Of a stretch of DNA of 64,000 nucleotides, positions 6,601-59,396 are shown one piece after another. Under the pieces are notes generated by a model. The model saw only the letters and a program-made list of their open reading frames with translations. It was not told the DNA's origin and searched no databases. A program made the translations under genes and the position numbers. This stretch comes from an uncultured Caryophanales bacterium (lineage in GTDB: Bacteria; Bacillota_I; Bacilli_A; Acholeplasmatales; Anaeroplasmataceae), in the NCBI GenBank assembly GCA_946405105.1, contig CAMJFY010000002.1:62001-126000 (forward strand). The letters are read 5' to 3'. Position 1 is the stretch's first letter; the number at the start of each line of letters is the position of its first letter.

Positions 6601-9600
6601 TGTATTAAATATTTCAGGATATAGATTAGAAGGTTGGTTTATAACTTCAACATTCAGTCAAGCATTTAATGTTGATACATATACATTTAATGCTGATACA
6701 ACATTATATGCTGAATATATTAAGATTTATAATGTTACATTCTTAGATAATGATGGTAATCTGATTAAGACTGTAACAGTTGATACAGATACAAAGGTAA
6801 CAGAATCAATTACAATTCCTTATATTGAAGGATATAAATTCTCTTATTGGAAGAATACAAGTAATAATCAAGAATTTGATATAACAGAAGAATATATTGC
6901 AGCTGATTATACATTAAGAGCAGTATATGTTGTAGATACTAATCCAGTTGATAAGATGAGCATTATAAAGTCTGAAGGATTACAAGAGGCTGCATATGTT
7001 ACATTTAATGAATATAAGAATTCAAGTAATGTCGCAGCTGATGGATATAGTGTATATATTAATGGAAATGGATATAATAATAAGAAATTAGATAAAAATA
7101 ATGTATACATTACTAAATCAGGATCTACTTATAGAGCAGATTTAATGGGAATAAAGGCTGGTAGTTATAGTGTTACAGTATTACCTATATTCTCTGAATC
7201 AGAGATTCCAGCAGCTCAAACAAGCTCTAATGTAACTATTTCAGCTTATGATAGATCAGGCTATGCACACTTTAATTATTCAGATGGTGTAGGTGCTTAT
7301 AAGGATGATGGTACATTAAAGGATAACGCAATTGTTCTTTATGTTACAGATGAAAATAAAAATACTATTTCATTATCATTTGGTGGTGTTACAGTAACAG
7401 GTATTGGTAATATCTTAAACTCTGTAGGTGCTGATAATGGTACAGGAACAGCATCAAATGGTGGTGCAGCAAACACAAACCAAGGTATTTTAAAGAAACT
7501 TGGAGAAGCAGGTATTCCACTTGTTGTTAGATTTGTTGGATGTGTATCTGATTCTGGCTTATATGCTAAGGGTAGTTTCACTGCAGCAAATACATCATTA
7601 ATTAATGGTTTAACTAAATTTAATTCTGCTGATTATGGTGGAACAGAAGGCGATAATGGTCATATGGCTCGTATGAAATCTGCTAAGGATGTTACACTTG
7701 AAGGTGTTGGAAACGATGCAACTATTGATGGTTGGGGATTCCACTTCATGTGTGAAAGTTCAGCTCCAGATTTAGGAAAGAGCTTTGAAGTTAGAAACCT
7801 AAAATTTATTAATACTCCAGAGGATGCAATTGGTATGGAAGGAGTTCAAGCATCAAAGAATGCTTCATCTGATTTATCTGCATCAGTTGAAAGATGCTGG
7901 ATCCATAACAACGAATTCTATGGACCTACAATTGTTGGTCCAGCTGAAAGCGATAAAAAAGAGGGCGATGGTTCTTGTGATTTTAAGCGTGGACAATTCT
8001 TAACAGTTAGCTACAATTATTTTGAAGGATGCCATAAGACAAACCTAGTTGGTTCAGCTGATTATTCATTACAATTTAATTTAACATATCATCATAATTT
8101 CTGGTATATGTGTAAAGCAAGAGGACCATTAACAAGAAGAGCTAATGTACATATGTATAATAATATTTTCTATGGTCAAACAGATTATGCAGTAAACACT
8201 AGAGCTGATGCATATATCTTTACTGAATATAACCAATTCTATTTATGTAAGTCACCATTTGCAGTAGAAGGTGGTGCTATTAAGAGCTATAATGATAACA
8301 TTTCAAGTGTTATTTGGAACAAAGGCTCTGAACCTACTTACGTAACAGATAAATCTCAAACTGTAAGCAATAATTGTCAATTTAGTGCAAGAGGAGTTAA
8401 TTATTCTCAATTTGATACAGATTCAAGCTTGTCATATATTCCAACTAATGATTATGATTTACAAGAAGACATAGTTGAAGCTAGAAAAGTAATTTATGCA
8501 AGATGTGGTGTTGCGAAGAGTGAATTAATTGACCCATCAACTGTAACTATGGATGATATATCACTATTAAATAAGATGATTTCTAATCCGACAATTAATA
8601 ATTTATCAGTTGGACAAACAGTTACACCTGGTAAGCTTACAAAGGCCATTTATGCATTCAAGATTACATCTTATGCAACAGCAACAATCAGTTATGCATC
8701 AGATGCAGATGCTTCTACAGGTGTATTATGTAATCAAGCAGGCGTATCATTACTTAAGGGTAGTGGTACAGTAGTACTTGCTCCTGGTATTTATTGGGTT
8801 CAAGCAAACCAATTCCAACCTGGTGATTCTGCGACATTAGCCCAAGGCTCATTCAAAGAATTTACAATTAATTCATTAACACTTTCTGAATATGATAGCT
8901 CAGCATTAAATGCAGAATTAATTGCAAATTATAATAATGCCGTTGCTAATATTCCATCTACAATTACTTATACAGATTCATGCTATAGCGCTATAAATGC
9001 TGCAAAGAATGCCTACATTAATTTAGGTGCTTCATTACAATCAGAAGTAGATTATTCGCCTGTTACTACAGCATTAAATGCTTATAAGATAGCTGGTGAA
9101 GCATATGTTGAAGGATTAATTAATCAAATTGAATTACCTGTTACAGCATCTAATTCAGCTCCTATCTTAACTGCAAGAGCTGCATACAATGCTTTAGTTG
9201 CAAAGATTAGTGATGCAACAGTATCTAATTATTCAACATTAGCAACAGCTGAAGCTCAGATGTCTGAATTAGCAGTTGATATATTCTTAAATGCAGTATC
9301 TGAAATTCCATCTACAATTACATACACTTCAGCATGTAATAATGCAATCTCAAATGCAGAAGCAGCATATGCTAACTTGGATGAAAATCAAGTTAAAATA
9401 TCTAGCGTTGTTAGTGCATATAACACAATGACTGCAGCAAGAACACAATATGATAATTTAGCAGCAGTAGCTGAAGTAGATGCATTAATTGCAGCTGCTT
9501 CACTAAGTGGAACTAAAGCAGAATTAAAGGCTGTTATGGATGCTTATAGTGAATTAACATCAGCACAACAATCATTAATTGCAGATTCAAGCAAGTATAA

Positions 9601-54094: not shown

Positions 54095-55411
54095 ATGAAA
54101 AATCTTATTGAAGAAAAAGATGGGAAGCTATATTATAACGGCTATTGCCTTGTAGATTTAGCAAAAAGATTTGGTACACCGCTTACTGTTACTTTTTTAG
54201 ACATTATTAAGGAACGTATCTTATCACTTAAGGAAGCATTTGAGACTGCAAGAAAGGCAACTAATTACGAGGGTAATTTCATCTACTTAAATGCTAACAA
54301 AGCTAATTATGGAAAGGATGAAATTGAATCTGCGTTCATTTTCGCAGATGGTCTTGAAACATCATCTTTCTATGATTTAGTATTATCTTTAAAAATGTAT
54401 GAAAAATATCCTTTATTCCATGACAAGCTAATTGTTTGTAATGGCTTAAAACAAGATGATTATTTAGACGCTATTATTTTAGCCCATAACATTGGCTATA
54501 ATATTATTACAGTTATTGATGATATTTATGAATATGAATATTTCAAGAAAAAGGATGTATGCTTAAAGATTGGTCTTAGAGTTCATTTATCAAGCTTATA
54601 TGAGCCTGAGGTACCAGATGATAGATTTGGTCTAACAGCTGATGAAATTGATTATATTTTAAATGATATTAAGAATACTAATATGGTTTTAAATACAATT
54701 CATTATCATCAAAGAGGATTTGATTTTGAAGAAGATAAATTCTTCAAGAACTTTGATTTAGCTTTTAAATATTATATTAAAGCTAAAAAGATGTATGATT
54801 CAGTTATCTATTTCGATTTTGGTGGAGGAACACCACTTCCAATCGAAGGAGAATTTGATTATGTAGCTTATGCAACATCAATCTTAAATCATATTAAGGA
54901 TTTATGTTCTAAGAATAAGGTTGCCATTCCTAATTTAATTAGTGAAAATGGTAAATATAGCCAAAAGGATTCAACAGTAAATATCTACAAGGTTGTAGGT
55001 ACAAAAAATACTGGTAAATATCCATGGCATATTGTTGATTCATCATTATTAATCGCATTACCTGAAATGTATGCTTTAGGTGAGCCAATGCTAATTAAGC
55101 CTATCAACAACTTAGATAAGCCAATGGTTGAGGCAAGACTAGCAGGTATCACTTGTGATTGTGATGATGTATATTTTGATAAATCAACAGGATATTTCTT
55201 AATGCCTGATTGTGAAGATAATTATATTGGATTATTAGGTACTGGTTCATACCAAAATTCAATGAATGGTAAGGGTGGAGTACATCACTGTATGTTACCA
55301 GAAGAAAAAGATGTAATTATTTATTACAAGAATGGTATTGAATTAGTTAAAGTAAGAAAAGAATTACAAACTATTGAAGATATTTATAAGATTTTAAATA
55401 TTAAACATTAA
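54095..55411 (+). CDS. PLP-dependent decarboxylase, alanine-racemase-like fold III (Arg/DAP/Orn type)
   Basis: This 438-residue enzyme has the fold-III decarboxylase plan. The PLP Lys is in IYLNANKANYG near 72, His in IHYHQRGFD near 206, the phosphate-binding Gly loop in YFDFGGGTPLP near 250, SENGKYSQ near 288, and the active-site Cys region ITCDCDDVYF near 355. The order fits diaminopimelate, ornithine, arginine (SpeA) or carboxynorspermidine decarboxylases. The end LLGTGSYQNSMNG...HHC resembles SpeA-type enzymes most. It likely makes a polyamine or an amino acid precursor. The exact substrate is not decidable here. Its neighbours are a symporter and a HAD lipoprotein. Confidence 0.8.
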   Translation: MKNLIEEKDGKLYYNGYCLVDLAKRFGTPLTVTFLDIIKERILSLKEAFETARKATNYEGNFIYLNANKANYGKDEIESAFIFADGLETSSFYDLVLSLKMYEKYPLFHDKLIVCNGLKQDDYLDAIILAHNIGYNIITVIDDIYEYEYFKKKDVCLKIGLRVHLSSLYEPEVPDDRFGLTADEIDYILNDIKNTNMVLNTIHYHQRGFDFEEDKFFKNFDLAFKYYIKAKKMYDSVIYFDFGGGTPLPIEGEFDYVAYATSILNHIKDLCSKNKVAIPNLISENGKYSQKDSTVNIYKVVGTKNTGKYPWHIVDSSLLIALPEMYALGEPMLIKPINNLDKPMVEARLAGITCDCDDVYFDKSTGYFLMPDCEDNYIGLLGTGSYQNSMNGKGGVHHCMLPEEKDVIIYYKNGIELVKVRKELQTIEDIYKILNIKH

Positions 55412-57450: not shown

Positions 57451-57478
57451 TTGATTTGACCAAAAGTTGTGCTATAAT
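57451..57478 (+). promoter_or_regulatory. Promoter of the riboswitch-controlled gene
   Basis: TTGATT and TATAAT are separated by 16 bases. The start would lie about 25 bases before the aptamer. Confidence 0.75.
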
Positions 57479-57509
57479 GTATATGGATGAAATTGGGGAA
57501 AAAATTTAA

Positions 57510-57577
57510 TTTAGCAAAGTTAGAGCAATCTAGCGACGCAAAGCTATAGGGTCCCATGTGGATAGCCAGTTGCAAAA
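57510..57577 (+). promoter_or_regulatory. Cyclic di-GMP-I (GEMM-I) riboswitch
   Basis: The aptamer has the class I hallmarks: a P1 closing stem TTTAGCAA/TTGCAAAA; a hairpin GTTAGA-GCAA-TCTAGC with a GNRA tetraloop; the conserved GACGCAAAGCTATAGGG junction; and ATAGCCAGTTGC at the 3' side. The second arm is unusually short: GCTAT/ATAGC encloses only about 14 bases. It lies between the promoter and the ribosome site of the secreted protein gene, so c-di-GMP probably controls it in cis. I infer neither on nor off switching. Confidence 0.88.
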
Positions 57578-57633
57578 AATAGACTTTCATCTTAAATGTA
57601 ATTGACTATTTATAAGGGAGGTTTTTTTTCGAC

Positions 57634-59241
57634 GTGAGAAAAAAATTTTTTGCAGGAACTGCAGTAGCTATGTGTGTGCTAGGTTTTTCTTTATGCACTG
57701 TTTCAATTGATGCGACATCTAATGATATCGTAACTAATGACCAATTTGTATTTGATGCAAATAATCTAACTTCTAATTATGAATCAGGTGCATATATTGC
57801 GCAAGACCTAAATGTAAGTGTTAAGCTTGGTAACAACTACCAAGGAAATATTTTAAATGCTGGATTTGATTTTGGAGATTATAAATTTGATTATTGCTTA
57901 TTAGCAACAACTCCAACATATTCTTCATGGGAATCATTATTCAACAGCTTCTTCAAAAAGCAATCTAAGAATCAAGATTTAGCTCAATACTATATCTCAG
58001 CTTCAGAAGGAACTAGATGTGGTGTTTACTACACTGTAGTAGATAAGACACCAGTTGATAACACTTATTATGTTTCAAATAATAATACAGTTAGTGTTAT
58101 TAAGGAAAAAGGTAAGAACAAATATACAACTGTTGATACATTCACAGAACAATTAGATTCAATGTATTATTCTGAATTTACATTTGGAACTCAAGGAACA
58201 GTTGGTTTAAAGTCTGATACACAATACATTTGCTTATTTGGAGTTACAGTTGTTACTGAAACTGAAATCGAGAATAGAGAAGAATCAAATCAAGCTATTG
58301 AAAATTTAATTAATTATTATAATACATATGGTGTATCTACATCAGAAGAATTTACAAATCTTGTAGATGCTGCAAAGGAATCTTTAGAAGGTGTTAACCA
58401 TGTTTCTAAGATTGCTGATTATGATACATATCAAGATATCTTAGCTAAATATGATGAATTAGCTAATGTTGAAGCTAAGATTTCAGAATTAAGATTATTT
58501 AGTGCTTTTGCAAGAACAACAATGCCTTTATTAAATGTATCATATGATGATGCAACTAAAGAATTATTAGATGATATTGCAAATGAAATTGCAGCAGCAA
58601 ATGCATTAGGTATCTCAAATGAAGAAATTTCTAATTATAATTTATATTTAGAAGCGTTAAATATGTATAATGAAATGTCAAATGCTGCTATTGAAGCATT
58701 TGTTAATAAAGTAGCTGAAGCTAACGCTGTAAAGGGTGAAACTTCATCTTATGCATTAATTAATGAAGCAGAAGAATTATATAATGCTTTAAATTCTTAT
58801 GATAAAGAAAATGAAGCAGTAGTTGCTGCATATAATGCATTACAAGAAGTAAAAGCAGCTTATACTGAATATCAAGCATCTGTAACAGATAATGATATTG
58901 TATTCAATTACAATGAAGATGGTTTAATAAGCTCAATTGTATTTATTGGAACAATCAAGAATTTTGTATCAGCAAGTGAAATTGAGAATATTGTAATGGT
59001 TATTACTGATGAAACAACTGGTGAATCAGCTGAATACACATTAGAATCAGTATATAAGTCATTAAAGCAAAATGGTCAAGCTTTAAAAACTGCTGCTGAA
59101 GGTGTTAGATATATTTATAAGAAAATTGTTAATACAGATGGACAATATGATGGACATAAGCTTACAATGGCTTATTCAGTAGAATATACTGATGGTCATG
59201 TTGTAACATCAACACCAAAATCAGTAATAGTTGAGGCTTAA
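57634..59241 (+). CDS. Secreted protein under c-di-GMP riboswitch control
   Basis: This 535-residue protein has a type I signal peptide (MRKKFFAGTAVAMCVLGFSLCTVSIDA, cleavage near 27) without a lipobox. Residues about 35-205 are a beta-rich domain, about 210-430 are helical with repeats like EAANALGISNEEISNYNLYLEALNMYNEM and EAEELYNALNSYDKENEAVVAAYNAL (FIVAR-like), and about 430-535 are a beta domain (ending TPKSVIVEA). No sortase motif or catalytic signature is seen. GTG is the start codon, with AAGGGAGGT upstream. Known c-di-GMP-I targets include adhesins and surface enzymes, so a biofilm or attachment role is inferred. Confidence 0.82.
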   Translation: MRKKFFAGTAVAMCVLGFSLCTVSIDATSNDIVTNDQFVFDANNLTSNYESGAYIAQDLNVSVKLGNNYQGNILNAGFDFGDYKFDYCLLATTPTYSSWESLFNSFFKKQSKNQDLAQYYISASEGTRCGVYYTVVDKTPVDNTYYVSNNNTVSVIKEKGKNKYTTVDTFTEQLDSMYYSEFTFGTQGTVGLKSDTQYICLFGVTVVTETEIENREESNQAIENLINYYNTYGVSTSEEFTNLVDAAKESLEGVNHVSKIADYDTYQDILAKYDELANVEAKISELRLFSAFARTTMPLLNVSYDDATKELLDDIANEIAAANALGISNEEISNYNLYLEALNMYNEMSNAAIEAFVNKVAEANAVKGETSSYALINEAEELYNALNSYDKENEAVVAAYNALQEVKAAYTEYQASVTDNDIVFNYNEDGLISSIVFIGTIKNFVSASEIENIVMVITDETTGESAEYTLESVYKSLKQNGQALKTAAEGVRYIYKKIVNTDGQYDGHKLTMAYSVEYTDGHVVTSTPKSVIVEA

Positions 59242-59243
59242 TA

Positions 59244-59360
59244 ATGAAAGAATACAATAAACCTTTCTTAGAAGAAGAGCTTATAGAAATTGAGGATATA
59301 ATTTCTGTAAGCGATAAAGATGGCGACGATGTTGGAGACGATGTCGAAGGAAACGTTTAA
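59244..59360 (+). CDS. Small acidic ORF of 38 codons after the secreted protein
   Basis: MKEYNKPFLEEELIEIEDI then ISVSDKDGDDVGDDVEGNV. It starts two bases after the secreted protein stop (TAATAATG), and its ribosome site would be a weak GAGG in that gene's last codons. The N-terminus resembles short leader-like peptides with KP.L.EE.IE.EDII found in Firmicutes, and the C-terminus is very acidic. It is followed by a terminator, so it is the last unit of the same transcript. It is absent from the ORF track because of its size. Confidence 0.6.
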   Translation: MKEYNKPFLEEELIEIEDIISVSDKDGDDVGDDVEGNV

Positions 59361-59368
59361 TTAGTAAT

Positions 59369-59396
59369 AAACTGAGCATTTTTGCTCAGTTTTTTT
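59369..59396 (+). terminator. Terminator after the c-di-GMP-controlled transcript
   Basis: AAACTGAGCA/TGCTCAGTTT with a TTTT loop is followed by Ts. Confidence 0.9.

Follow-up and report, generated by a model that had tools for sequence, protein, structure and literature searches.

The window, that is, the whole analysed stretch of 64,000 nucleotides from an uncultured Caryophanales bacterium, carries on its forward strand a GEMM-I (c-di-GMP-I) riboswitch aptamer (positions 57503–57577), a gene for a secreted protein (57634–59241) and a mini-ORF of 38 amino acids (59244–59360), followed by a predicted terminator (59369–59392). Upstream of the aptamer, a promoter-like site was found at 57451–57478 (TTGATT and TATAAT, 16 nucleotides apart, with TG before the second hexamer), and transcription would be expected to start near 57484. 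Promoter-like sites were about equally frequent in shuffled sequences and the site is a consensus match only; TATAAT is present at the matching place in four orthologues of the leader. A Shine-Dalgarno-like sequence, AAGGGAGG (57614–57621), and a run of eight T (57622–57629) precede the GTG start codon of the first gene. Elsewhere in the window, a decarboxylase-like gene was located at 54095–55411; in genome G007 (L073) this gene lies immediately 5' of the orthologous operon, and in the window two genes intervene. An antisense ORF at 8997–9062 repeats part of another antisense ORF at 54939–55088, which suggests a second copy of the decarboxylase-like gene near 9 kb.

The first-pass annotation had assigned the leader to the c-di-GMP-I class, and the Rfam search agreed with this assignment: positions 57503–57577 gave a full-length match to RF01051 with 51.4 bits (E 3.9e-7, gathering threshold 35), tmRNA being the sole further Rfam family in the window. 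The switch shares with GEMM-I the GCAAA, GACGCAAAGCU and GCCAGUUGC parts, the full-length score above gathering and a place ahead of a secreted-protein gene, and differs in having A at the position of G20 and a Shine-Dalgarno sequence inside the 3' arm of a terminator-like hairpin. Its second arm, described earlier as shortened, is indeed short, but this is nothing special: the P3 insert is 19 nt long here, and 67 of the 106 distinct lineage switches surveyed have one of 19 or 20 nt. RF01051 was present in 69 of 120 related genomes, and the window riboswitch is real and, as a riboswitch, ordinary.

The genome to which the window belongs (1.43 Mb in 34 contigs, 91% complete) was characterized by profile searches, on which all whole-genome statements about it are based. 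It contains three RF01051 sites, 21 GGDEF and 6 EAL domain matches and no PilZ match, a dense c-di-GMP network for a small genome. Further GEMM-I sites and GGDEF and EAL genes, which had been proposed as checks of the initial reading, were thus found, and the lineage is rich in c-di-GMP enzymes. Neither of the two outcomes that the first-pass annotation had set against itself, a lack of RF01051 hits and an absence of diguanylate cyclases, was observed, since the family matched and the cyclases are abundant. The second switch of this genome (L024, C17:3499–3573) has A at the specificity base and a terminator overlapping the aptamer 3' strand; it precedes several consecutive genes for exported proteins whose N-termini are of the TTFAWY type, and two GGDEF-EAL genes adjoin. 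The third (L025, C4:91891–91967) has G at the specificity base, a terminator without aptamer overlap and a GGDEF gene immediately 3', a position in which feedback control of a cyclase is possible. Tandem GEMM-I aptamers are common among relatives (L087, L088, L178, L034, L077, L163), and one tandem copy of L163 carries C at the specificity base.

Folding of the leader gave an alternative hairpin at 57552–57619, whose 5' arm (57552–57574) belongs to the aptamer and whose 3' arm (57597–57619) extends into the Shine-Dalgarno-like sequence, with the U-run directly behind. This hairpin was the minimum free energy structure in all five leaders compared (the window, G025, G007, G008 and G009), despite differing loops and lower stems, with z-scores from -2.4 to -4.9 against dinucleotide-preserving shuffles, and five to eight T follow at the equivalent place in the orthologues. 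The hairpin base in G007 is GUCCCUC/GAGGGAC, immediately 5' of the U-run; the same arms pair in G008 with one bulged A, while in G009 an upper-stem G-U is replaced by G-C and another stem occupies the loop. Apart from this the upper stem hardly varies, partly because the same strand is also aptamer, and covariation support is weak. No terminator or anti-Shine-Dalgarno helix that leaves the aptamer unused was found by folding between the aptamer and the start codon. Since the alternative hairpin excludes the aptamer, ligand should favour expression, and the window switch is probably an ON switch, the direction and level of control being read from predicted folds. An expression platform that uses and excludes the aptamer was likewise predicted for all five orthologues, and several other switches of the genus have terminators that begin in the aptamer 3' strand, again pointing to ON switches.

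The complementary arms GATGAAA (57486–57492) and TTTCATC (57585–57591) had been put forward as the possible switch. Both are present, but the switching hairpin is the one at 57552–57619 with its U-run, and TTTCATC falls only in the loop of that hairpin; the pair therefore supports the aptamer and not the OFF state, and it was rejected as the switching helix. It is best read as a stem closing the aptamer on the P1 side, which joins the inferred 5' end of the RNA to the stretch just 3' of the aptamer. The pairing is kept in three of the four orthologues (G025, G007 and, with one G-U as GATGGAA, G008), and was not evident in G009 when the leaders were compared. The pilM riboswitch of Geobacter metallireducens is also an ON switch with a terminator built from aptamer strands (PMC9262584). 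The window switch has in common with it the predicted mutual exclusion of aptamer and terminator and, with its class, an A at the specificity base; it differs in that the ribosome-binding site lies within the hairpin and in that no Hypr GGDEF was found in its genome.

Position 11 of the RF01051 alignment, which we take to be G20 of Vc2, sets ligand specificity and is A in the window switch (57513). Among 106 sites of the lineage this base is G in 86, A in 18 or 19 (one entry, L090, is an overlapping frame of a G site) and C in one. The G20A mutant of Vc2 binds cGAMP, and the A is as in the cGAMP switches of Geobacter (PMC6274999, PMC7288161). These data, together with the share of A in the lineage, speak for a switch of GEMM-Ib type that senses 3',3'-cGAMP and not c-di-GMP. 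In the cGAMP-producing Hypr GGDEF enzymes a conserved Asp is replaced by Ser (PMC6456294). Among the GGDEF domains with intact motif in the 91%-complete assembly of the window's genome none has this Ser and one has Cys, so that cGAMP synthesis of the Hypr type, the only type covered by the search, was rejected for this genome. The domain with Cys (C2:34701–35162, L015) has an intact GGDEF motif and Cys for the conserved Asp of GHxxGD (GHHFGC), where Hypr enzymes have Ser. Moreover, many canonical GGDEF proteins are encoded, and the orthologous switches before the same secreted gene mix the two bases, four species having A and one having G; both points argue against cGAMP. Sensing of cGAMP is accordingly judged improbable, and c-di-GMP is the likelier ligand; of the earlier proposal the class stands, and the ligand is no more than probable, the specificity base being A and not G.

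The first gene encodes a protein of 535 amino acids with a GTG start and, as had been claimed, a signal peptide; its AlphaFold model (mean pLDDT 64) has beta domains besides a helical middle region. It belongs to no known family. The suggestion of a FIVAR-like protein was abandoned, as no Pfam family matched and FIVAR did not appear at E ≤ 1; the helical middle region, in a model of modest quality, is all that recalls it. A fold search with the same model returned nothing specific: the matches were unspecific or of a generic beta-sandwich type, and their TM scores were low. Orthologues were found in G025, G007, G008 and G009, and in all four a riboswitch lies 5' and a related mini-ORF 3' of the gene. 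In Bacillota, surface proteins under riboswitch control are well documented (PMC4933901, PMC7423583, PMC6200980). As with the riboswitch-controlled adhesins of Bacillus thuringiensis (PMC4933901, PMC7423583), an exported protein stands behind a c-di-GMP-class switch in a member of the Bacillota; however, no homology of these adhesins with the window protein is shown, and no peptide precursor is known to accompany them.

The mini-ORF, already noted but left uninterpreted in the first reading, tells the most about the locus. It starts 2 nt past the stop codon of the secreted protein. Its 38-residue product has a leader (YNKP...IEIEDII), a conserved Ser and a variable tail. With a profile built from six such mini-ORFs, the taxonomic family to which the window's genome belongs yielded about 68 short ORFs (E ≤ 1e-4), including a second one in that genome (C2:144121); both precursors of this genome are intact, with leader and Ser conserved. 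The shared part reads M(K/R)xYxKPxIxEExIEIEDxIxxS, with a nearly invariant Ser, and the sequences diverge thereafter. Of 37 collected mini-ORFs, 35 follow closely on a long ORF (290 amino acids or more), with a distance of -1 to 22 nt between its stop and their start. A simple hydropathy rule assigns a signal peptide to nearly every complete upstream protein, and the upstream proteins form two similarity groups, the window protein belonging to the larger one. A GEMM-I aptamer lies directly 5' of eight such operons (the window, G025, G007, G008, G009, G006 C46, G015 C23 and G005 C285); most mini-ORF operons are without a riboswitch. No model in NCBIfam fitted the mini-ORFs. A phage origin was discarded, as no phage DNA match was obtained and viral contigs yielded no peptide relative.

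In four relatives (G009, G015, G023 and G027), a PqqD-type protein, a signal-peptidase-like protein and an ABC transporter were found nearby. An HprK-like ORF is present at these loci in G009, G015 and G023, and NTP_transf_5-like ORFs in G027, G015 and G023. Example profile matches were PqqD 5e-17, ABC_tran 2.5e-25 and NTP_transf_5 7e-28 and, for the signal-peptidase-like protein, Peptidase_S24 9.5e-8 and archaeal-type signal peptidase I 1.2e-10; the HprK-like proteins matched HprK-related models weakly (about 1e-3 to 1e-2) and have a clear P-loop, SGTGKST. Lasso cyclase and B2 peptidase were not noticed in the four cassettes, which were inspected by reading alone. Direct control of the G009 modification cassette by the riboswitch is unlikely, because a terminator follows the G009 mini-ORF.

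The distribution of the peptide (E ≤ 1e-4) and the PqqD-type element (E ≤ 1e-20) was compared in 55 genomes, namely the window's own and 54 others of the family. Both were present in 24, the peptide alone in three, the element alone in none and neither in 28 (Fisher p 1e-12, a value inflated by relatedness; the thresholds were chosen after viewing the lists, and a weak element match of 2e-7 in G039 was left out). The corresponding counts (both/peptide only/element only/neither) were 13/3/0/11 within the genus and 11/0/0/17 outside it. In each of the nine positive genomes tested the HprK-like gene lies beside the element, whereas six negative genomes lack it. Element, NTP_transf_5 and HprK-like gene were not found in the searches of the window's genome (assembly 91% complete), nor were element and kinase in two other peptide-bearing genomes, which are 84% and 73% complete. 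Both a gap at a single locus and a true loss are possible explanations for the machinery missing from the window's genome.

Linear polyphosphorylated peptides (LPP), described in May 2026 by Popov et al., have no known role, biofilm formation being offered by their authors as speculation; their core Ser 3 is phosphorylated, their recognition element, kinase and NTP transferase are related to those of paeninodin-type lasso peptides, and LppB holds the YxxP motif through Asn and Asp (PMC13381572). Comparison with structures 9x8z and 9x90 showed that the element of the relatives carries both of these residues. The mini-ORF peptides share with LPP the YxxP leader, the variable tail and a conserved Ser near the leader end, and the relatives share the PqqD-type element, HprK-like kinase, archaeal-type signal peptidase-like protein, ABC transporter and NTP transferase; polysaccharide genes lie nearby in some genomes in both cases. 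In contrast, the mini-ORF consensus is YxKPxIxEExIEIEDxIxxS and that of LPP YxxPxVLxHQxIxFETxxS, so that HQ is missing from the mini-ORF leader and its Ser lies one residue further from the Tyr. The arrangement also differs: the mini-ORF precursors are scattered, each right behind a secreted-protein gene, with one machinery locus per genome, some of them stand under a cyclic-dinucleotide riboswitch, and no machinery was found in the genome of the window. As the full published leader consensus is not reproduced, the mini-ORF is called LPP-like and not a strict LPP member. Paeninodin-type lasso peptides have Trp (WxxP) where the mini-ORF leader has Tyr (YxKP), and the paeninodin element has Gly where that of the relatives has Asn. 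The mini-ORF is a strong candidate precursor of LPP-like RiPP type; its pairing with secreted proteins is a new arrangement, to which this clade probably adds riboswitch control. No report linking a c-di-GMP riboswitch to a RiPP precursor was found in the literature covered, which was incomplete.

On the whole, the locus is read as a ligand-ON two-gene transcript for a secreted protein and an LPP-like RiPP precursor, with a probability of about 0.6. Its transcript would start near the predicted site with the GEMM-I aptamer first. Without ligand, the 3' half of the aptamer would pair around the ribosome-binding site, forming the long hairpin followed by the U-run, and transcription would stop early and/or the ribosome-binding site would be hidden. 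When a cyclic dinucleotide, most likely c-di-GMP, is bound, the aptamer, closed by GATGAAA/TTTCATC, would retain its 3' half, and both genes would be expressed, the first yielding the secreted protein and the second the putative precursor. In relatives, the PqqD-type recognition element may hold the YxKP leader, the HprK-like kinase may phosphorylate the conserved Ser, the signal-peptidase-like protein may remove the leader and the ABC transporter may export the product. Secreted protein and modified peptide would then appear together under surface-life signalling. Of this picture, the aptamer, the alternative hairpin, the gene pair, the peptide family, the co-occurrence and the gene set of the relatives are computational results, whereas ligand, direction of control, peptide modification and joint function are inferred.

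Two other accounts of the second gene were weighed against this reading. In the first, a surface or secreted protein would be controlled by c-di-GMP in the ordinary way, and the mini-ORF would encode a conserved small protein that is no RiPP, such as a partner or chaperone of the secreted protein. The known riboswitch-controlled surface proteins of the Bacillota would be precedents, the peptide seldom occurs uncoupled from a secreted protein, and the window's genome yielded no modification machinery; but the presence of the PqqD-type element in 24 of 27 peptide-bearing genomes and never apart from the peptide would be left unexplained, as would the YxxP leader, the conserved N-terminal part and the variable tail, and this account is held to be rather unlikely. 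A more serious contender, although not favoured, is that the mini-ORF is an orphan precursor in this species, the modification locus having been lost, so that only the secreted protein matters. It would fit an assembly in which two precursors remain and the element, the NTP transferase and the HprK-like gene are absent; against it, both precursors have kept leader and Ser, and, because the machinery is one locus in relatives and about 9% of the assembly is lacking, a gap would explain the absence. 

A wider proposal, doubtful at present, builds on this reading: a riboswitch for a cyclic dinucleotide might induce the secreted protein jointly with its own phosphorylated, perhaps further modified, peptide, which would act on the protein or together with it in a two-part surface system, and one modification locus might serve many scattered protein-precursor pairs in this family of Bacillota. 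Within one genome both A and G occur at the specificity base, which raises the question of whether the lineage senses c-di-GMP with two thresholds or senses two messengers. In eight operons of one genus, LPP-like precursors lie behind a riboswitch for a messenger of surface life and right after a secreted-protein gene. This pairing of riboswitch and mini-ORF links the LPP-like peptide family to surface-life signalling, and for the LPP family, whose final products are unidentified, it names the secreted protein as a candidate partner and a high level of cyclic dinucleotide as a condition that can be tested.
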